The notes beneath the pieces are model-generated. The model was not told where the DNA came from and ran no database searches. It worked only from the letters and a program-made list of their open reading frames with translations. From Sulfurovum sp. (lineage in GTDB: Bacteria > Campylobacterota > Campylobacteria > Campylobacterales > Sulfurovaceae), in NCBI GenBank assembly GCA_027068485.1, contig JAMOSB010000027.1, forward strand, positions 1-64,000: a stretch of DNA of 64,000 nt, given 5' to 3'. The number at the start of each line of letters is the position of its first letter. Position 1 is the stretch's first letter. Below are positions 2,697 through 13,552 of the stretch, piece after piece. The position numbers and the translations under genes were made by a program.

Positions 2697-3565
2697 TGGC
2701 AGAACACTTTACGATACAACAGGAGGCGACCCTCCTCCCCTACCTCTTTGAACACCTCAAAGGGTGGTCAAAAAAACGGGTCAAACAGCGTCTACAGGGT
2801 GGCTATGTCACCCTCAATGGCACCATCACCACCCAACACAATGCACGCCTCAATGCGGGGGATACCCTAGAGGTAGGGGATGAGAGTGGGCGTGTGGCTC
2901 CCACTTTACCCCAACAGCGTCAACACCTAGAGATCCTCTATCAAGACCGTGACCTCATCGCTATCAACAAACCCCATGGACTCCTCTCCGTAGGGACAAC
3001 CCAAGAGAGACAACACCACGCCCTCGCACGCCTACGCACCCAACTCTCACGCAAAGATAGAGCCATCAAACTCTGGCCAGTCCATCGACTCGATCGGGAG
3101 ACCTCAGGGGTTCTGCTCTTTGCCACCTCCAAAGCGATGCGTGAAGCGGTCATGGCAGAGTGGCATCGTGCGAGTAAGGTCTACTTTGCTGTGGTAGAGG
3201 GTACACCCAAGCCTCCACACGGCACCATAGACCAACCCCTCTACCAAGATGAGCAGAGCTACCATATACATGTAGGCAACCACCCCAACGCCAAAGAGGC
3301 GATCACCCACTACCAAGTCGAGCGTAGCACGGCGACACGCGCTTTACTACGCGTGACCCTAGAGACTGGACGACAACATCAGATACGCGTACACCTCGCA
3401 TGGCTAGGGCATAGTGTCATTTCAGATGAACGCTACGGTACCAAGAGTAGCGTGCGTCTGGGGCTACACGCCCATCGTCTCACCTTTATCCACCCCAAAA
3501 GCCAAAAAGAGATCACGGTGAGTGTCCCACTCCCCGCTAGCCTCACTCAACTACTCAAGTACTAA
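2696..3565 (+). CDS. RluA-family rRNA/tRNA pseudouridine synthase
   Basis: Converts specific uridines in RNA to pseudouridine. It has an N-terminal S4 RNA-binding domain (about residues 15-60) and an RluA catalytic domain with the signature HRLDRETSG near residue 130, whose Asp is the catalytic nucleophile. INKPHGL near residue 90 and the GRxHQIRVHL motif near 223 are also typical. Length (289 aa) fits RluD/RluC-type enzymes, but the target position cannot be read from sequence, so no symbol is given. Its ATG overlaps the helicase stop codon by one base, and both genes concern RNA, so the pair is probably co-transcribed. The gene ends convergently against the outer-membrane barrel frame, with a 4 bp overlap. 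Confidence 0.9.
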   Translation: MAEHFTIQQEATLLPYLFEHLKGWSKKRVKQRLQGGYVTLNGTITTQHNARLNAGDTLEVGDESGRVAPTLPQQRQHLEILYQDRDLIAINKPHGLLSVGTTQERQHHALARLRTQLSRKDRAIKLWPVHRLDRETSGVLLFATSKAMREAVMAEWHRASKVYFAVVEGTPKPPHGTIDQPLYQDEQSYHIHVGNHPNAKEAITHYQVERSTATRALLRVTLETGRQHQIRVHLAWLGHSVISDERYGTKSSVRLGLHAHRLTFIHPKSQKEITVSVPLPASLTQLLKY

Positions 3566-4473
3566 AAATCTATCTTTACAAAGATACGCCCCTCTAGAAG
3601 CGGTATCCCCGCTTCACTCCGCCCAGACCATCGTGTATGCATATACTCATTGGAGTAGGCGATGAGTACCTTATCTCTCTGCCACCCAACAGAGAAGCTA
3701 TAGTCAGGCTCTGCATACTCTTGGAGATCAGGATCACTATAGTAGAAGAGGTTCCCCTTACAGAAGAAGTGATTATCAAACTCTCGCTTCGCAGAGAGAG
3801 CAACTTTGTGCTGATTGTAGTTGAGGACGCGTTCATACTCCAATGAGAGTGTGGTATCTCCTATCTGCTTCTCCCCCAAGAGTGCTACTGCGTTGTAGTC
3901 ATTGGAGGGGCGATACTTTAGCTTACTGATAAACTGTGTATCCCACGCATACCGACGGCAGTTGAGTTCCCATGTCCCATCTCGAAATCCTGAGACATTC
4001 TCTCCCGTATGGAACTGATTATTCTCATAATTGGCATATGAAAATCCACAACTATTAGGCTGATAGGAGGCGTAGCTAAAGGAGTAGTAGAAATCAGGCT
4101 GATAGTAGATATTTTCATATCCATTGGTATCGAGCATAAGCTGTGTGGAGAGGTGAAGATTAGTGATAGGTTCCACCTCTACAAAGAGACTAAGCATCTC
4201 TCGTGTGATATCACGCTGAGTGATATTGTTGAGGGAAGAGCTAAACTCCAACGAGAGCTTGAGCCACTTCTCCCATGGCTTCCACGCAAGAGCCACATGC
4301 TTCTCTTCCTTGCTCTTCCTTGCTCCTAGATGCTCTCTCTGGATAGGGGTACCCCCCGATAGACGAGGGGTCACGGGATTCACTTCTCTCGCATCAGATA
4401 GAGGTGTATCTGGTGGGGGAGTCAGAGCTACACTTGAGGGAGTAGCCTGCGTGGTCTCTAATGAAGCAGTCAC
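3562..4473 (-). CDS. Outer-membrane beta-barrel, probable C-terminal part of a frameshift-fused protein
   Basis: The last ~230 residues alternate polar and aromatic positions and end in Phe (IFVKIDF), as expected for an outer-membrane barrel. The first ~70 residues are a low-complexity Pro/Thr/Ser linker. The position given starts at a GTG with no Shine-Dalgarno sequence, and no signal peptide follows, so the frame could not reach the outer membrane alone. The frame is open further upstream, to the stop at 4624-4626, and this stretch overlaps the 3' end of the DUF3131 gene. A -1 shift (or one extra A) at the ten-A run 4601-4610 would fuse the two into a product of about 1,360 aa. I infer it is the export pore of the polysaccharide locus, comparable in role to the barrel of BcsC or PgaA. 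Alternatives are a decayed gene or a homopolymer sequencing error. Confidence 0.55.
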   Translation of the reverse strand: MTASLETTQATPSSVALTPPPDTPLSDAREVNPVTPRLSGGTPIQREHLGARKSKEEKHVALAWKPWEKWLKLSLEFSSSLNNITQRDITREMLSLFVEVEPITNLHLSTQLMLDTNGYENIYYQPDFYYSFSYASYQPNSCGFSYANYENNQFHTGENVSGFRDGTWELNCRRYAWDTQFISKLKYRPSNDYNAVALLGEKQIGDTTLSLEYERVLNYNQHKVALSAKREFDNHFFCKGNLFYYSDPDLQEYAEPDYSFSVGWQRDKVLIAYSNEYMHTRWSGRSEAGIPLLEGRIFVKIDF

Positions 4474-4553
4474 TACAACACCACTAGAGTGAGAGTGAAG
4501 CGGTGTTTGCTCCGAAGGAGTGGGGAGTGGGAGAGACTCCTCTCCACTTACGC

Positions 4554-7500
4554 TTAGTGTGGTGTGGGTGGTGTTACCATCACTTCGGGGGCGTGAAGGG
4601 TTTTTTTTTTGACTTGTGTAGGATCATAGGTGACAGGCAGGCGTAACTGCTTATCTTCTATTATCCTATTGGTATAAGGGAGACGATAGTCATACTCATA
4701 GTAGCGATTTGCCCATAAGAAGTCTGCGGAGTCTATGCTCCCCTGCTCAACCCTAAAGGTGGTATCGTTTGTATCATTCAAAAAGGTACGATTAAAGGTC
4801 TTGGGGTGAAGCGTGGTATCAAGCTGTGTCAGCAGATAGCGTGCTTGGGTCTTGGTATCAAATGACCCTACCGCCACCACATAGTTCTCCCCTCTACGCT
4901 CGATACGCACCAATGGCTGATCTTCAAACCGCTTTACCAACATCTTGGCATAGACAAAGAGCTTGATTGGGGGAGAGACAACAAAGTAGCGATTGGAGTC
5001 ATGAATAGGTTGATGCAGGCGTATCTTCTCTTGGCTTTTGGGGCTAAGATGGTAGTAGAAGTTTCCTACTTTTTTAAAGAATATCGACTCAAGCACCGCA
5101 GCATTGGTGTAGATACTCACAGAGGTATTGACCCGATCAAAATCTTTGTAGTAGCCTCCATACCACCCCACTCTTGGGCTATTGAATGAGGCAACACTCT
5201 CTTGGAGTACCTTAGCATAACTATCAGTATACCCATAGAGTGCATCATAGATAAAGGCGACTTTGGTACTGTAGGTAGAGAAGTCTAAGAGTGGTCTATT
5301 CTTCTCATCATAATCTCCCCAGTGGCTATTGTTGTTGTAGATATCATTAGAGACAAAGTAGGGTTCTTGACTGAGGTGCTCCTCACTTGAGGTGGTAATC
5401 TTCCCCGTGATCTCATAGCGTTGCTTCTGTGCCAGATAGATATTGGAGGAGAAGTGCTTATACTTCAGATAGTAGGGCAACTCAAGCATCGTCCACAAAA
5501 AGCTCTCCGCATTGGTCTTTTTGTACCAGTGTCCAGAGGGTACTTCATAGTCATAGATGCGTTGATAGGCGAGGTGTCTCTCATCGACAAGGTGGCTATA
5601 GCTCTCTTTGTTGATGAGTTTAAGTGCAGCATGGACATAGTACTCTTGGAGTGGGTCAGCGATCTGATAGAGCTTCTCATCTGTACCGTTATCGATCTGA
5701 GCATTAAACATCCCACCCGTAATCGCCCGATCAAACTTCATACTCGACAAGATCGCCAAGACCTCCTCTTTGTAGCGTGGATAGTAGCTCTGAAGGTGGT
5801 AGAGTCCACTCAAGAAGTGGGCGATATCGTAGATACTCCACCCCTCCTCATCGATAGGCTTGGCTTGGCTGGCTGAGTAGTATTTGTTGGGTAGCTCTTG
5901 GTGGTAGAGTGGTAGCTCCTTGAGAGTACGAAGGAGTCGACTCATACGCGTATGAAACTGCTCATCTGTGATGATATCGAGTGATCGAGCGGCAATCGTC
6001 CCCATGAGGGTTTTACCCACGGCACGCATCGAGACTCTATCGTAGTTCTCATACGCATTGACAATCCCCGTCTCGGGGTGGTAGTTATTCTCAAAGAACC
6101 TCCACGCGATCTTCGCTGCCTCTCTATCGGCATCGGTGAGGCGTTGAAGATTCATCATAGGGTTATAGGGTTCTAGTATGGTAGGTTTTGTCTCTTGAGG
6201 AAGACAGCGAAAATTATTGACATGGTTACGGTAGTAGTCATAGGTTCCCCGCTTCTTAATCTGATTGATCTTCTGAAGTGGCCCCATATTTTTAAAGAGT
6301 AGTGACTCCAAGATAATCGCATTGGTATTGAGTGTCAAGGCACGGTTTTTCCCTGCTTTGGTCTCATAGATCCCTGCGTAGTAACCTCGATCTTTGTTGT
6401 AGTTGTTGTCGATATAGTCAAAGAGCTTTTTGGTGTAGTTGGTATCAAAGAGTATCCGCATCCCGATGGCTGCCTTGGTACTCACCGACTTAAACTCACT
6501 GTAGTCTTGGGCGTGGTGGTTGATAATCTTCCACGGCTCAGAATCCTCATAGATGGTGTTGTAGAGGAAGTAGGGAGCCTCATCGATATGATCTTCGGTC
6601 ACCGCCGTGAGCTGAGAGGTCGCCTTGTAGCGTGCCTCTTGTACCTCATAGATACGCTTAATATACTTACCTGACTCATTATCATCGACCCCATAATCAA
6701 ACCCTGTATACCAAAACGACTCACTCCCCAAGAAGGCACTATAGAATTTTCGTGTCTCAGTAGGGACTTTGACCCCATAGATATCGACCTCTTTCATAAA
6801 CTTATAGCTTCGTGCCTCTTGGAGATCAAAGCCCCAATTCTCATAACTTCGTGCCGCATACTCCTCATAGCCTGTTAGCGTCTCTTGGTTGATCTTGGTC
6901 TGTCCCTGCTCATAGGTCGCACCATACATCGTCCCCTCTACACTGATACTACGACAGTAGCGGTAGCGAAGCAGAAGCTTCTCAATGGTAGGGTTGAGTG
7001 AAGCTTCACACTGCTGTATGAGGTTGAGTGAGGCTAAGAGCCGTGCGATATCGTTGATAGACCACCCAATCCCAGAGGGTTTCTCATTGTTACCGTAGTC
7101 GGTCATCTTAGCTGTTTTGGTATTGTAGGTTTTATTTGGCAGTTCATTGTTGAAGATCTCCATCTCCTGCATCGTCTCCAAAAACGCATTCATCATCTCT
7201 TCAAAACGATCTTGTGTAATGATCCCAAACTTCTTAGCCGTATAGATCGCATAGACACCATTTGACCAATCCCACACCGACGCAGAGGGGTAGTTATCTG
7301 CTGCGTTGATTAACCCTGTCTGCTCATTGAAGTTATTCTCGATGTACTTCCATGCGATGCGTGCCATCTTGAGTTGCTCTTTGGTGGGTTTAGTACGCAG
7401 TTTACACGGATCATCAGAATCCTCTTGGATCGAAAGTGTTTTATTCTCCTCTTGACAGCAACACATCGTCACACGCTTAGCACAGCATGGAGTCACCTCA

Positions 7501-7658
7501 CTTTTAGGAGGTGTTGTCGTTGTGGCTTGAAGTAGTGGCTCACCTACAGAGCGTTGAAACGAAGTAAATCCAAAGAGTGTGTAGAGTACCAAAAGTAAGA
7601 GGATAAACAGACCTACTACTATACCTATAAGTATTTTGCTGCGATTAGAGGTAGCCAT
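4554..7658 (-). CDS. Membrane-anchored protein with two DUF3131-type domains and a SPOR-like C-terminus
   Basis: A 1,034-aa protein. A hydrophobic segment near residues 9-31 acts as signal anchor, so the rest should be periplasmic. Two copies of the same ~380-residue unit follow, at about 94-480 and 508-880. Each opens with an IAW(K/R)-x-(I/F)ENN helix, then a TGxxNAxxNY turn, an ELPNK segment and a GWSIxDIA(R/H) motif. Near 915-965 is a SPOR-like stretch (VVAVGSFDTKTQARYL). An unusual Cys cluster (CC-x6-CCC, about residues 58-68) follows the anchor. I chose the ATG at 7658 because it lies one base after the stop of the preceding gene; a TTG at 7670 is the alternative. DUF3131 has no established activity. 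The alpha-helical architecture and the neighbouring GT2 synthase suggest a polysaccharide-binding or -modifying role. The 3' end holds the ten-A run leading into the barrel frame. Confidence 0.8.
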   Translation of the reverse strand: MATSNRSKILIGIVVGLFILLLLVLYTLFGFTSFQRSVGEPLLQATTTTPPKSEVTPCCAKRVTMCCCQEENKTLSIQEDSDDPCKLRTKPTKEQLKMARIAWKYIENNFNEQTGLINAADNYPSASVWDWSNGVYAIYTAKKFGIITQDRFEEMMNAFLETMQEMEIFNNELPNKTYNTKTAKMTDYGNNEKPSGIGWSINDIARLLASLNLIQQCEASLNPTIEKLLLRYRYCRSISVEGTMYGATYEQGQTKINQETLTGYEEYAARSYENWGFDLQEARSYKFMKEVDIYGVKVPTETRKFYSAFLGSESFWYTGFDYGVDDNESGKYIKRIYEVQEARYKATSQLTAVTEDHIDEAPYFLYNTIYEDSEPWKIINHHAQDYSEFKSVSTKAAIGMRILFDTNYTKKLFDYIDNNYNKDRGYYAGIYETKAGKNRALTLNTNAIILESLLFKNMGPLQKINQIKKRGTYDYYRNHVNNFRCLPQETKPTILEPYNPMMNLQRLTDADREAAKIAWRFFENNYHPETGIVNAYENYDRVSMRAVGKTLMGTIAARSLDIITDEQFHTRMSRLLRTLKELPLYHQELPNKYYSASQAKPIDEEGWSIYDIAHFLSGLYHLQSYYPRYKEEVLAILSSMKFDRAITGGMFNAQIDNGTDEKLYQIADPLQEYYVHAALKLINKESYSHLVDERHLAYQRIYDYEVPSGHWYKKTNAESFLWTMLELPYYLKYKHFSSNIYLAQKQRYEITGKITTSSEEHLSQEPYFVSNDIYNNNSHWGDYDEKNRPLLDFSTYSTKVAFIYDALYGYTDSYAKVLQESVASFNSPRVGWYGGYYKDFDRVNTSVSIYTNAAVLESIFFKKVGNFYYHLSPKSQEKIRLHQPIHDSNRYFVVSPPIKLFVYAKMLVKRFEDQPLVRIERRGENYVVAVGSFDTKTQARYLLTQLDTTLHPKTFNRTFLNDTNDTTFRVEQGSIDSADFLWANRYYEYDYRLPYTNRIIEDKQLRLPVTYDPTQVKKKTLHAPEVMVTPPTPH
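4601..4610 (-). other. Ten-A homopolymer joining two reading frames
   Basis: On the coding (minus) strand this is a run of ten A residues read as Val-Lys-Lys-Lys-Thr in the DUF3131 gene, 16 codons before its stop. Slipping back one base (or adding one A) leads into the barrel frame, which then stays open for about 346 codons. Such runs support transcriptional slippage, -1 ribosomal frameshifting or phase variation. It is also the commonest type of sequencing indel. Confidence 0.6.
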
Positions 7659-8976: not shown

Positions 8977-10731
8977 TTATCCTTTAAATCTGTATCGTGC
9001 AGCGTTGACGATCGCCAAAAGTGCTAGTATATTATAGAGTGACCACAAGAGGTTGACACTAAATCCTGTCAAGTACTCCCGATAGTCAAAAAGCAACATC
9101 AGTGAAGCGTAGACAATCGCCACTAGATAGAGGAGTATCAGAGCGATCTGCACCCGTACAAGCGAGAGGAACTCTCCCTCTTTGGCGACCTTTGAGGTGA
9201 CCACAAACTCAATGGGTCTTCCCCGTATCACATCCCAAAAGGCTTGGAGTACCATCGGGAAGATGGCGATAAAAAACTGTGAACCTCTATTGGACTCCAC
9301 CCCCCATGTCGCGATCATTAAGGTGATCTGATTGAAGAACAAGAACGGCACAAGATGGATAAAAAATGTCATCGAGTAGCTCTCAACAGGAGCGATATTG
9401 GTAAACATATAGAGGATAGGAGAGAGGAGAAGTATCACCAACCAGATCGCTCCCGTGTAGGACCAGAAGGTACTAAAATACATCAACTTCTGCCCTAGTG
9501 AGAGTCCTGAGTTGATAAACTTTCCAAACTCTTTTTGCATCAAGTCAATCGTCCCTCCTGCGTAGCGAAAACGCTGGGCACTCCAAGTGAGCATATCCAG
9601 AGGAGAGAGCATCTTCGACTCCACATCGGGGTGGAGTACCGACTTATAGCTCTTATCTGCGTAGGCGTGTACCAAGAGGGAGGTGTAGATATCCTCTGAG
9701 GTGTGGTAGGCGATATACTCTACATCCAACTCCCCCATCACCTCTTGAGCGTTGTTGGCCTCTACCACCCGTTCTCCCCACCGCTTGAGTGCTACGGTAC
9801 GCAGGGCATCCGTACGGTGAATAGAGGTCGCCCCACAACAAAATGATGCATTGTAGTTGTTGCGTCGTCGCTGAATAATATCAAAAAAGACCTGCGGGTC
9901 ATTGGCAAAGAGATCACTCCCCGTCTCAAGCTTCCCAAAGAGCTTCTGTACCACCTTGGCACTCACCTCTCCAACCACACCCGCCTTCTCTCGCCATTTG
10001 GTGGTGAGACTCTCCCCTTGGGTAAGGTCACAAAACCACTGTGGAGTCTGCACCCATGCGACACTACTATCTTTGAAGTAGCCCATAGTGTTGAGTAGAA
10101 TATCCTCAAAGAGACGGGTATCGGAGTCGATAATGACCATAAAATCCCCCCCCGTGATATCCATCGCATTAACCATCGCACCTGCCTTTCGTCCCTTTTT
10201 ACCCTCACGGGTAATCTGCCGAACCCCCTCCTCTTGTGCCATCTGTGTCATCGCCTCATTACGGCTATCATCGAGTAAGAAGACTGCTACTTTCCAGTTG
10301 GGTAGACGCTTCACTTTTTTGGCTGCTTTGATCGTCTCACGAACCAAGGCAGGGTCTTCATTGAAGACAGGGACATAGATGTCTATCTGAATGGGTTGAT
10401 CTAGGTAGTAGGGTTGTGCTGAGGGGGCTACCACCTCTGCCATCGTATGGGGAGCGGACTGCTTGGGGGTATCGTTTTGTCTCCAAAACCCAATCACCAC
10501 CAAAATCGTCCCAATAAACATCATCGTCTCCGCAAACGCTAAAGGGATAGCAAACCAAAGAGCCTCCATATTGAGCGAGCTACTCCAACGGTAGTAGATA
10601 TACCATGCCCCTAGTAGCAGAGTAATCACTCCAAAAAACTGGAATAACAGCTCTCGTAGGGTTGAGTGAGCTTGAGGGGTGTAGGGGGTGCGTTGCTCAT
10701 ACGCCTTATCTAAAAAATATAATGCACTCAT
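8977..10731 (-). CDS. Cellulose-synthase-like processive GT2 glycosyltransferase
   Basis: An inner-membrane processive glycosyltransferase that should polymerise a sugar from a nucleotide donor while extruding the chain. Two N-terminal membrane segments (about residues 25-80) are followed by a GT-A domain with the family's catalytic landmarks. These are DDS near residue 152, the DSD metal site near 200, SED (in place of the usual TED) near 345 and QRFRY (the QxxRW box) near 384. Four to six C-terminal membrane segments follow. At 584 aa it ends without a recognisable PilZ domain, so direct c-di-GMP control as in BcsA is not indicated. It lies between the sugar-nucleotide gene and the DUF3131 genes. 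The polymer cannot be named: cellulose, other beta-glucans, hyaluronan-like or mannan-type products all fit. Confidence 0.88.
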   Translation of the reverse strand: MSALYFLDKAYEQRTPYTPQAHSTLRELLFQFFGVITLLLGAWYIYYRWSSSLNMEALWFAIPLAFAETMMFIGTILVVIGFWRQNDTPKQSAPHTMAEVVAPSAQPYYLDQPIQIDIYVPVFNEDPALVRETIKAAKKVKRLPNWKVAVFLLDDSRNEAMTQMAQEEGVRQITREGKKGRKAGAMVNAMDITGGDFMVIIDSDTRLFEDILLNTMGYFKDSSVAWVQTPQWFCDLTQGESLTTKWREKAGVVGEVSAKVVQKLFGKLETGSDLFANDPQVFFDIIQRRRNNYNASFCCGATSIHRTDALRTVALKRWGERVVEANNAQEVMGELDVEYIAYHTSEDIYTSLLVHAYADKSYKSVLHPDVESKMLSPLDMLTWSAQRFRYAGGTIDLMQKEFGKFINSGLSLGQKLMYFSTFWSYTGAIWLVILLLSPILYMFTNIAPVESYSMTFFIHLVPFLFFNQITLMIATWGVESNRGSQFFIAIFPMVLQAFWDVIRGRPIEFVVTSKVAKEGEFLSLVRVQIALILLYLVAIVYASLMLLFDYREYLTGFSVNLLWSLYNILALLAIVNAARYRFKG

Positions 10732-10740
10732 CAGACAACA

Positions 10741-11841
10741 CTACTCACGCGAATCACCAATCAAAAGCGTATGCCCCTCATCATCAAGGCTAATATACCC
10801 TCCCGCCTCATCAATGACATACTTGCTATTGATGATATTTTTAATAAAGTGCTGATGGGGACCTATCTTGGTATAGCGAAGCAGAATACTCTGCTCAAAA
10901 GTCACGCCCTCTTTGAGGATAGCACCCGACTCAATGACACACGGACCAATCACCTTGACCCCCTTCTCCATACGCACACTATTACCGATATAGAGTGGGG
11001 GGATAAGCTCTACACTATCCAAGTCAATATCACAGTTGATCCCCATCCATATCCCAGGACGCACCTCTTTGCCATAGAGTGGTAAAGAGGGGATCTCTCC
11101 TTGCATCAACTGCATATTTGCACGGTAGAAATCAGCAGTCGTTCCCACATCAATCCAGTGAAACACAGGGACAAACGCATAGAAGTCCACCCCTCTCTCA
11201 ACCAGAGAAGGAAGAAGCTCTCCGCCAATATCATACGCTTGGTCTTGCGGGATAAGTTCAAGGATCTCAGGATTGAAGATATAGATACCTGTATTGATAC
11301 AGTTACTCTTCGCCTCGGCTACAGTTGGTTTCTCTTGAAAGCTCTGGATTTTGTTCTCCTCGTCAGTCACCACAACACCATAGCGGTAGACCTCTGATTT
11401 GGGTACCTCTTTACAGACAACCGTTGCCATCCCACCATGGGCTTTGTGGTATGCCATCGCTTCAGCCAGATCCAAATCGGTAATCGCATCCCCACAGATC
11501 ACCAAAAAAGGCTCATCAAAGAAGTTGGAGTACTCCTGTACACGCTTTAATCCACCCGCAGACCCCAACGCATCGGGTACCACCTCACCATTCTCCACAC
11601 GCCCCTCTAGTGAATAGGCGATATACATCCCTCTTGAGCGTCCATTTTGGTAGTGATCTTTAAGCATATTGGCTTTGTAGCTCACTGTGACGATCACCTC
11701 ATCAAACCCATGGGTTTTGAGTAGATCAAAGAGATACCCCATGATAGGTTTTTCTATCACAGGTACCATCGGTTTGGGGAGATCGTAGGTAAGTGGTCTC
11801 ACCCGTGTCCCCTCTCCTCCACTCAATATCACTGCTTTCAT
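10741..11841 (-). CDS. Sugar-1-phosphate nucleotidylyltransferase with left-handed beta-helix tail
   Basis: Forms an NDP-sugar from NTP and sugar-1-phosphate. The N-terminus carries the nucleotide-binding signature GGEGTRVRPLT followed by PKPMVPV, and GDAITDLDL near residue 109 supplies the metal-binding Asp. Residues after about 250 form hexapeptide-type repeats (IGNSVRMEKGVKVIGPCVI), as in bacterial mannose-1-phosphate guanylyltransferase-like and glucose-1-phosphate thymidylyltransferase-like enzymes. Which nucleotide and sugar are used cannot be decided by eye. It directly precedes the GT2 synthase with a 9-base gap, so it most likely makes that enzyme's donor. Confidence 0.85.
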   Translation of the reverse strand: MKAVILSGGEGTRVRPLTYDLPKPMVPVIEKPIMGYLFDLLKTHGFDEVIVTVSYKANMLKDHYQNGRSRGMYIAYSLEGRVENGEVVPDALGSAGGLKRVQEYSNFFDEPFLVICGDAITDLDLAEAMAYHKAHGGMATVVCKEVPKSEVYRYGVVVTDEENKIQSFQEKPTVAEAKSNCINTGIYIFNPEILELIPQDQAYDIGGELLPSLVERGVDFYAFVPVFHWIDVGTTADFYRANMQLMQGEIPSLPLYGKEVRPGIWMGINCDIDLDSVELIPPLYIGNSVRMEKGVKVIGPCVIESGAILKEGVTFEQSILLRYTKIGPHQHFIKNIINSKYVIDEAGGYISLDDEGHTLLIGDSRE

Positions 11842-11863: not shown

Positions 11864-12178
11864 TTATACTTTGTCTATTGCTAGAATACGCATTAATCCT
11901 GCAGTAGTCATTATCTCACGCGGTTGTGTTGCCAAGTGGATAATCTCAAGACTTTTCTGGTGGCGTGTTGCCCACTGATGAAGTCGTACCAGTAGACTCA
12001 CGCCACTCGCATCAACAAACTCAACCCCAGCCAAATCGACTATCACACACCTAGCACCTGACTCAAACGCTTCTATAGCGTGTTGTTCTAAGGCTTTGGC
12101 AAGCTCAAACCGTACTACAGGCTTCTCAAAACAGATCCGTACAGAGACGTTCTCTTCTGCTGATACCACGATAGACAT
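11864..12178 (-). CDS. STAS-domain regulator (anti-sigma-factor-antagonist type)
   Basis: A 104-aa single STAS domain. The conserved loop reads DLAGVEFVDASGVSLLVRL, with Ser58 in DASG at the position phosphorylated in SpoIIAA-type proteins. STAS proteins of this type switch partners according to that phosphorylation. No cognate kinase or phosphatase is encoded nearby. It lies between the hydrolase-like lipoprotein and the pyrophosphorylase on the same strand with short gaps, so it is probably part of the same operon. SypA of Vibrio fischeri is a STAS protein that controls a polysaccharide locus, which makes a similar role here plausible but unproven. Confidence 0.8.
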   Translation of the reverse strand: MSIVVSAEENVSVRICFEKPVVRFELAKALEQHAIEAFESGARCVIVDLAGVEFVDASGVSLLVRLHQWATRHQKSLEIIHLATQPREIMTTAGLMRILAIDKV

Positions 12179-12196: not shown

Positions 12197-13552
12197 TTAG
12201 TTTGAAAAGAGTGCATCAAAGATACTCCCTTTAAAGCTGATATCTCCCATCATATACTTATCGACTTCATCTCGTGCAGAGGTCTTGATAATCCCCAAAT
12301 GATACTCATTATTCAGAAAATACTGATATCCATTAATATCATGTTGAGGATCATCAAAGAGTTTCATCACCGCAAACCCAAAGAGACCACTCTGATAGAG
12401 TTCCTCTTTACGATCCATCATAGCCAGATAGAAGTTCTCTGCTACATCCTCCCAACCACTCAAATCTAGCTCCGACTCCTCAATAGCACCATTGCTATTG
12501 TCATCACTCCATGTTGCGGTTGCAATCGTAATGTGAGAGAGGAAGACGGGCTTATGGTACTTCTCGTTCATATAGGTAGAGAGATTGATAATCCGTGTAT
12601 CAAGATACTCAATCCCTAGCTCATCGTTGGTGTAACTACGAGGATTGGGACTCTCTTGGCTTCCAGGGTCATCATGGTCACGACTAAACTGCCCTACCAT
12701 CTCACTAAATGAGAGAAAATCAAGCTTAGGAAGGAGTAGCGTATAGATCGGCTCAACACTATCCCACATCTTCTTATCTCCCAAGGCACACGGGCTATAG
12801 CCACATGAGACATGGCTATCGGTAGCACTACGAAGCCCAGCATCCATCATGGATAGAGAGAAGAGGGTATCTTCAGTTCCACCTCTTAGCGTATCGATCG
12901 CCTGAGCCAAAGTCTTGGCAAAAGTCTCTTGCTCCTCTTGGGTAGGGGTATGGACTACACTATTTTTATTGAACTCTGGTTCCATAATAACAATCTTCTT
13001 ACCCTTGAGCTTCTGAAGAAACTTGAGAACCTTTTGGTTGTGTGTGTAGTACTCCTGCGTGGTATCGGCATCAGGAAGCCCCCCTGCGAGTTCATCAGCA
13101 AAGTACCAGTAGTTGAAGACAGGAACATAGCCTAGATCCATAGCCGATTGAATATCATCGACACTCACCCAGTTCTCTTCCCAATACTTGCTGATCCAAT
13201 AGACCACATACTTGGTCTTTTTAAGCTTGGACTGTAGCTCCTTGAAGGCAGCCCCATCAAACTTCTCAATAGGCTGATAGCGAGAGACCTGATCTATCTT
13301 ATCATTGAAGATCAAATCGGCACTACTGAGCCATATTGGTGTATCACTTCCATCACTAAAGGGGTAGGCACCATCCATTCCTATACCGACATTAAAACTC
13401 TCATAGAGCGTATCCCATTTTGTTGAGTCATTTGTCTCTGTATTGTCTATCATCTCTTTAGGTGAGGTATCTGATGAACCCCCTCCACCACTACATCCAA
13501 CCATTATCAGTAATAGTATACTCCATACTATCACTCCTCCTATGCGTCTCAT
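12197..13552 (-). CDS. Lipoprotein with a glycoside-hydrolase-like fold (putative)
   Basis: The N-terminus is a lipoprotein signal (hydrophobic stretch then MVGC lipobox, Cys about residue 20), followed by a Gly/Ser spacer. The rest contains the segment types of a TIM-barrel glycosidase: YVVYWISKYW, VPVFNYWYF, VIMEPEFNK (a Glu at a beta-strand end), DFLSFSEM and KPVFLSHITIA. An Asp/Asn-rich loop (DDNSNGAIEESELD) resembles an EF-hand-type calcium site. No family can be named with confidence. As first gene of the minus-strand polysaccharide locus it fits the usual accessory hydrolase of synthase-dependent systems, which trims or releases polymer. It is transcribed divergently from the asparaginase-domain gene. 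Confidence 0.6.
   Translation of the reverse strand: MRRIGGVIVWSILLLIMVGCSGGGGSSDTSPKEMIDNTETNDSTKWDTLYESFNVGIGMDGAYPFSDGSDTPIWLSSADLIFNDKIDQVSRYQPIEKFDGAAFKELQSKLKKTKYVVYWISKYWEENWVSVDDIQSAMDLGYVPVFNYWYFADELAGGLPDADTTQEYYTHNQKVLKFLQKLKGKKIVIMEPEFNKNSVVHTPTQEEQETFAKTLAQAIDTLRGGTEDTLFSLSMMDAGLRSATDSHVSCGYSPCALGDKKMWDSVEPIYTLLLPKLDFLSFSEMVGQFSRDHDDPGSQESPNPRSYTNDELGIEYLDTRIINLSTYMNEKYHKPVFLSHITIATATWSDDNSNGAIEESELDLSGWEDVAENFYLAMMDRKEELYQSGLFGFAVMKLFDDPQHDINGYQYFLNNEYHLGIIKTSARDEVDKYMMGDISFKGSIFDALFSN

Follow-up and report, generated by a model that had tools for sequence, protein, structure and literature searches.

Synthase-dependent exopolysaccharide systems include outer-membrane barrels of the BcsC, PgaA and AlgE type. 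The locus described here resembles these systems in that a predicted outer-membrane barrel, joined to a periplasmic module, stands in an operon with a family 2 glycosyltransferase. It departs from them in its periplasmic part, which consists of two DUF3131 domains and a SPOR domain, in a barrel frame without an export signal of its own, and in the lack of a match between this barrel and any known family or solved structure.

The way in which the barrel appears to be attached recalls recoded genes. In tssM1, a type VI secretion gene of Citrobacter rodentium, transcriptional slippage at an A11 run before the stop codon amounts to about 20-25%. Function depends on both length variants and on the ratio between them, and the slipped and unslipped products have exchanged roles in the Yersinia tssM homologue (PMC4256274). 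tssM1 and the present gene, both envelope genes assigned to the inner membrane, share an A-run just ahead of their stop codons and a slipped C-terminus that would reach the outer-membrane side, and the Yersinia role reversal resembles two relatives reported below (G158 and G236). The gene family differs, however, and the part added here is a whole predicted barrel; moreover, slippery sites are uncommon in tssM, whereas the present candidate site is conserved across families. A tract of roughly nine A's is prone to slippage, and selection usually acts against such tracts (PMC1088944). In dnaX, recoding relies on transcriptional slippage at A9 in Thermus (PMC1088944) and on a -1 ribosomal frameshift in E. 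coli (PMC5009743). Here too, slippage in one lineage and a heptamer with a hairpin in another would lead to an equal outcome, but the recoded product is usually longer, while that of dnaX is usually shorter, and the swap of signals falls inside one GTDB genus (G522 and G525).

The window, i.e. the whole 64,000-nt stretch of Sulfurovum sp. DNA analysed, carries an A10 run at the end of a tandem-DUF3131 gene. We propose, with a probability of about 0.7, that this run is a site of programmed recoding, mainly by slippage of RNA polymerase, through which one exopolysaccharide gene would yield both a short and a fused protein. To our knowledge, conserved transcriptional slippage in ordinary cellular genes has seldom been documented. 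If the proposal is correct, this would be a case conserved over three families, in which in-frame and ribosomal-frameshift versions serve as built-in controls, and a new design of polysaccharide export with an enzyme-to-pore fusion dosed by slippage, possibly with a single protein that reaches from one membrane to the other. In standard gene calling, the predicted fusion is cut in two, and its barrel half, which lacks a signal peptide, is reported as a fragment. A literature search returned no account of this DUF3131-barrel recoding; DUF3131 is barely mentioned, and PMC11756786 merely cites a review of frameshifting.

The A10 run and its reading frames

The tandem-DUF3131 gene is read on the minus strand from an ATG at 7658 to a TAA at 4554-4556, and the ten-A run reported near its end in the original prediction was located at 4601-4610 (Table 1), where the DUF3131 frame reads GTC AAA AAA AAA ACC. 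Across the 1,731,404 bases and 38 contigs of the genome, A10/T10 occurs once, at this position, which, together with the A9-A11 runs at the matching place in homologous loci, speaks against a chance occurrence. The barrel frame closes with a TAA at 3562-3564 and is open back to 4623, across the run as predicted, the nearest upstream stop being a TGA at 4624-4626. Ahead of the barrel, the candidate starts are four GTG codons only (codons 51, 81, 84 and 110 of the open frame), and neither a good Shine-Dalgarno site before these four nor a signal-peptide-like or hydrophobic export segment in the window barrel frame was found, in agreement with the earlier description of a frame with GTG starts, no signal peptide and no ribosome site.

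Table 1. Positions of the features in the window and the basis on which each was assigned
Feature	Positions	Strand	Basis or remark
A10 run, candidate slippage site	4601..4610	-	T10 on + strand; sole A10/T10 of genome; A9-A11 in relatives
Zero-frame tandem-DUF3131 gene, 1034 aa: hydrophobic N-terminus, two DUF3131, SPOR-like domain	4554..7658	-	ORF and Pfam
Two-frame overlap, 70 nt; a single shift must fall inside	4554..4623	-	ORF comparison
-1 frame: Pro/Ser/Thr-rich linker, then barrel domain; 353 codons and stop	3562..4623	-	ORF
N-terminal hydrophobic segment, probable signal-anchor	7572..7634	-	Read from sequence
SPOR-like domain (peptidoglycan binding, predicted)	4818..4940	-	Pfam SPOR 16.6 bits, cut-off 21
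Barrel-like domain, ~242 residues, last residue Phe	3565..4290	-	Aligned with 11 relatives; beta periodicity
Second DUF3131 protein, 436 aa	7660..8970	-	Pfam 441.8 bits
Cellulose-synthase-like family 2 glycosyltransferase	8977..10731	-	Domain searches
Sugar-phosphate nucleotidyltransferase	10741..11841	-	Pfam NTP_transferase 185.7 bits

Addition of one A creates a fusion of 1382 residues from stop to stop, or 1365 aa counted from the ATG at 7658, which bears out the earlier estimate of about 1,360 aa, while removal of one A terminates the product no more than about 10 codons past the run. As is expected of programmed transcriptional slippage of the tssM, dnaX and mxiE type, the two-frame overlap encloses a homopolymer of at least about nine A or T. 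The run also contains, at the overlap, an in-frame heptamer of the X_XXY_YYZ form (A_AAA_AAA), as is expected of -1 ribosomal frameshifting of the dnaX and IS911 type. No stimulatory structure was found close to the window A10, the best fold being a hairpin about 50 nt off (z -2.2); stimulators of -1 ribosomal frameshifting are common, but not obligatory.

Junctions in related Campylobacterales

The arrangement is shared by 15 Campylobacterales loci from seven genera and three families. The first relatives, found by a scan of genome contigs and a genus search, have the same gene order and an A10 ending the DUF3131 gene, and one of them is a Sulfurovum MAG of the same genus as the window. A profile search of the order recovered ten genomes, which represent seven genera and three families, and a family-wide search added three genomes with substantial matches; no further members came from searches that covered the phylum, the class and the families to which G081 and G235 belong. 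Among the genomes sampled from the order, exactly ten contain the DUF3131-SPOR C-terminus, and the barrel occurs in these ten and no others. Within the family, the system is patchy and was seen in 14 of 175 genomes (including one 59-aa fragment), many of the searched genomes being draft assemblies.

Twelve of the 14 loci scored for frame require the same -1 shift, two are in frame and none occupies the third frame, counts to which no formal probability is attached because G171, G313 and G158 are close relatives. The tract comparison suggested with the original prediction showed that 14 of the 15 loci have A9-A11 at the position of the window run, where the DUF3131 gene ends. Among the shifted loci, the run is A10 in G000, G031, G013, G194, G171 and G313, A9 in G235, G423, G522 and G523 (the G523 contig begins near the junction, and its frame was taken from the sequence) and A11 in G081, while G525 has no long run. 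The stretch open in both frames measures 13-109 nt, and in all of the examined A9-A11 loci the run lies inside it; the 13 nt of G081 consist almost entirely of the run. In G013, G171, G236, G158, G313, G194 and G031, two to five A10/T10 runs occur per genome, and the junction is always one of them. The fifteenth locus, in G071, has an A10 but was left out of the frame counts, its DUF3131 ORF being broken as well: several frame breaks affect the DUF3131 gene and the barrel (L007, G071:C13, 5507-9513), and they reflect either an indel-rich assembly or a decaying copy. At L001 3415-3514, a run of N separates two copies of a TSPLKVIKKETTKKE-coding linker repeat, and for this reason the linker length there is uncertain.

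Natural single-frame fusions had been named as a check, and two were found: G158, with an A11 and 1381 residues from stop to stop, and G236, with an A10 in frame and 1455 residues. Both retain the run, and a one-base slip there gives the short product. The A10 of G313 against the in-frame A11 of its near relative G158 shows that the tract is mutable.

The predicted product and its operon

DUF3131 (PF11329) matches the window gene in two stretches with 649 bits against a Pfam cut-off of 20.3, and SPOR reaches 33.7 bits in relative G081, above the cut-off of 21. In each of the 12 members, the last residue of the barrel-like domain is F or Y, and the mean beta z of this domain is 2.2, compared with -1.0 for the DUF3131 stretches, whose region is alpha-periodic. 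An aromatic C-terminus and amphipathic beta periodicity, the marks of outer-membrane beta-barrels, are thus both present. Pfam and PDB searches with the barrel returned no family or solved-structure match, and an AF2 model built from two sequences only had a pLDDT of 31. In loci where the shift alone can express the barrel, dN/dS of the barrel frame is 0.15-0.18, similar to the 0.10-0.20 of the DUF3131 frame; the barrel frame is under purifying selection. The barrel fold and an anchoring of the gene product in the inner membrane are predictions from sequence. Most N-termini are signal-anchor-like, and the N-terminus of G081, which looks like a cleavable signal peptide, counts against an inner-membrane anchor in every member.

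Upstream of the genes in Table 1 and in the same direction lie a STAS-domain protein (11864-12178) and a protein of 451 aa, probably a lipoprotein, that matches no Pfam family clearly (12197-13552); both may belong to the same operon. The relatives' loci additionally contain genes of the OpgC-type acyltransferase, BD-FAE esterase and GH2-like kinds. This gene set is compatible with a membrane synthase that makes a decorated exopolysaccharide, for which the barrel would be the outlet.

Proposed origin of two predicted products

According to the proposed mechanism, RNA polymerase would slip on the A10, so that a share of the mRNA would gain one A or lose two. Translation of the faithful mRNA would give the short 1034-aa protein, with its hydrophobic N-terminus, two DUF3131 domains and SPOR-like domain, and slipped mRNA would extend it by the Pro-rich linker and an outer-membrane barrel of about 240 residues into the 1365-aa fusion, the N-terminus of the gene providing the export signal that is absent from the barrel frame. 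The fusion would couple the synthase side of the envelope to the polymer outlet pore, and production of two forms from a single gene would fix the ratio of enzyme to pore. The proposal rests on what was observed of the run and its conservation, the reading frames, the fusions found in nature, the selection acting on the barrel frame and the different signal of G525 described below; slippage itself, the two proteins, the barrel fold, the topology and polymer export are all deduced from sequence. Conservation of the run in homologues (14 of 15 loci), together with selection on the downstream frame, is what programmed slippage would lead one to expect. Slippage would also buffer mutation of the tract, since either tract length, A10 or A11, would yield the two products, in differing proportions.

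On the fuller architecture the odds seem even. A single polypeptide would have an inner-membrane anchor, a SPOR domain that binds peptidoglycan and, at its end, an outer-membrane barrel, with polymerase slippage setting its proportion to a barrel-less twin. The dual output would be strongly selected, one lineage having swapped the run for a ribosomal frameshift signal and others having come into frame with the run kept. A protein spanning both membranes is the step held least certain.

It is unlikely that in all species the ribosome shifts by -1 on faithful mRNA, at an A_AAA_AAA or A_AAA_AAG inside the run, although a slippery heptamer in the right frame lies inside every run and two loci lend the idea substance. 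G235 has A_AAA_AAG with a small hairpin nearby. In G525 (site at L046, G525:C106, 6521-6570), which is without a long A-run, A_AAA_AAG occurs in frame only once in the DUF3131 gene, and 3 nt beyond it begins a hairpin of -18.1 kcal/mol, the most stable of 2192 sampled 42-nt windows of the 11-kb locus (z -3.6). In layouts for -1 ribosomal frameshifting, stems usually begin 5-8 nt downstream (PMC4066793). The candidate site of G525 is a classical layout of this kind, with a stem that starts a little too near to the heptamer, unless the A-U pairs at its base come apart. Seven A's would suffice for the heptamer, yet all the other loci hold rare runs of 9-11, and no consistent RNA structure was found just downstream of the long runs. 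G525 groups in trees as the sister of G522, which has an A9 and belongs to the same GTDB genus. Compared with its relatives, G525 seems to have exchanged transcriptional slippage for ribosomal frameshifting, inside a single genus; between it and the long-run loci, the predicted outcome is conserved and the signal is changed. For the window, transcription is the favoured level of slippage, although the ribosome could slip on A10 too; ribosomal slippage is a possible added contributor alongside the polymerase.

Phase variation, in which replication slippage on the run would toggle the fusion between cells, is improbable as the main explanation. Homopolymer tracts are mutable, and a tract length that varies between relatives, as is typical of phase-variable genes, was seen in G313 and G158. 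However, such genes are also expected to occupy all reading frames among relatives, and here the third frame was never seen (0 of 14 scored loci) and 12 share one shifted frame; in addition, G525 has a hairpin in place of a homopolymer, and the barrel frames of the shifted loci are under purifying selection. The original prediction had left programmed frameshifting, transcriptional slippage and phase variation side by side. Programmed slippage is now favoured over pure phase variation, because the direction of the shift and the length of the run are conserved and the run of G525 is replaced by a frameshift signal.

A separate barrel gene, whose translation would re-initiate once the DUF3131 frame has stopped, is very improbable: the frames overlap or almost touch, as coupled genes do, but no barrel frame has an export signal, no start or ribosome site is conserved, G081 has no ATG, GTG or TTG at all ahead of the barrel, and two natural fusions exist. 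This candidate was rejected for the absence of signal peptides and conserved starts; a free-standing barrel gene with its own signal peptide, the finding that would have spoken against the predicted fusion, occurs in none of the 15 loci. Sequencing or assembly errors hiding in-frame genomes throughout are scarcely credible, since the shift has the same direction in 12 genomes across A9, A10 and A11 and is present in G525 without a homopolymer, even if homopolymers are error-prone, in-frame relatives exist and G071 carries several indels.

Two C-terminal barrel fragments lie without a DUF3131 gene nearby, one of 105 aa at L029 (G171:C26, 8856-9173) and one of 59 aa at L047 (G074:C18, 2613-2792 of the reverse complement); they are either remnants or binning errors. 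In G158 (L025), the barrel is nearly identical to that of G313 (L026; dS 0.014), the DUF3131 part is further apart (dS 0.116) and the N-terminus matches G171 (L024), a mosaic which suggests recombination inside the gene.
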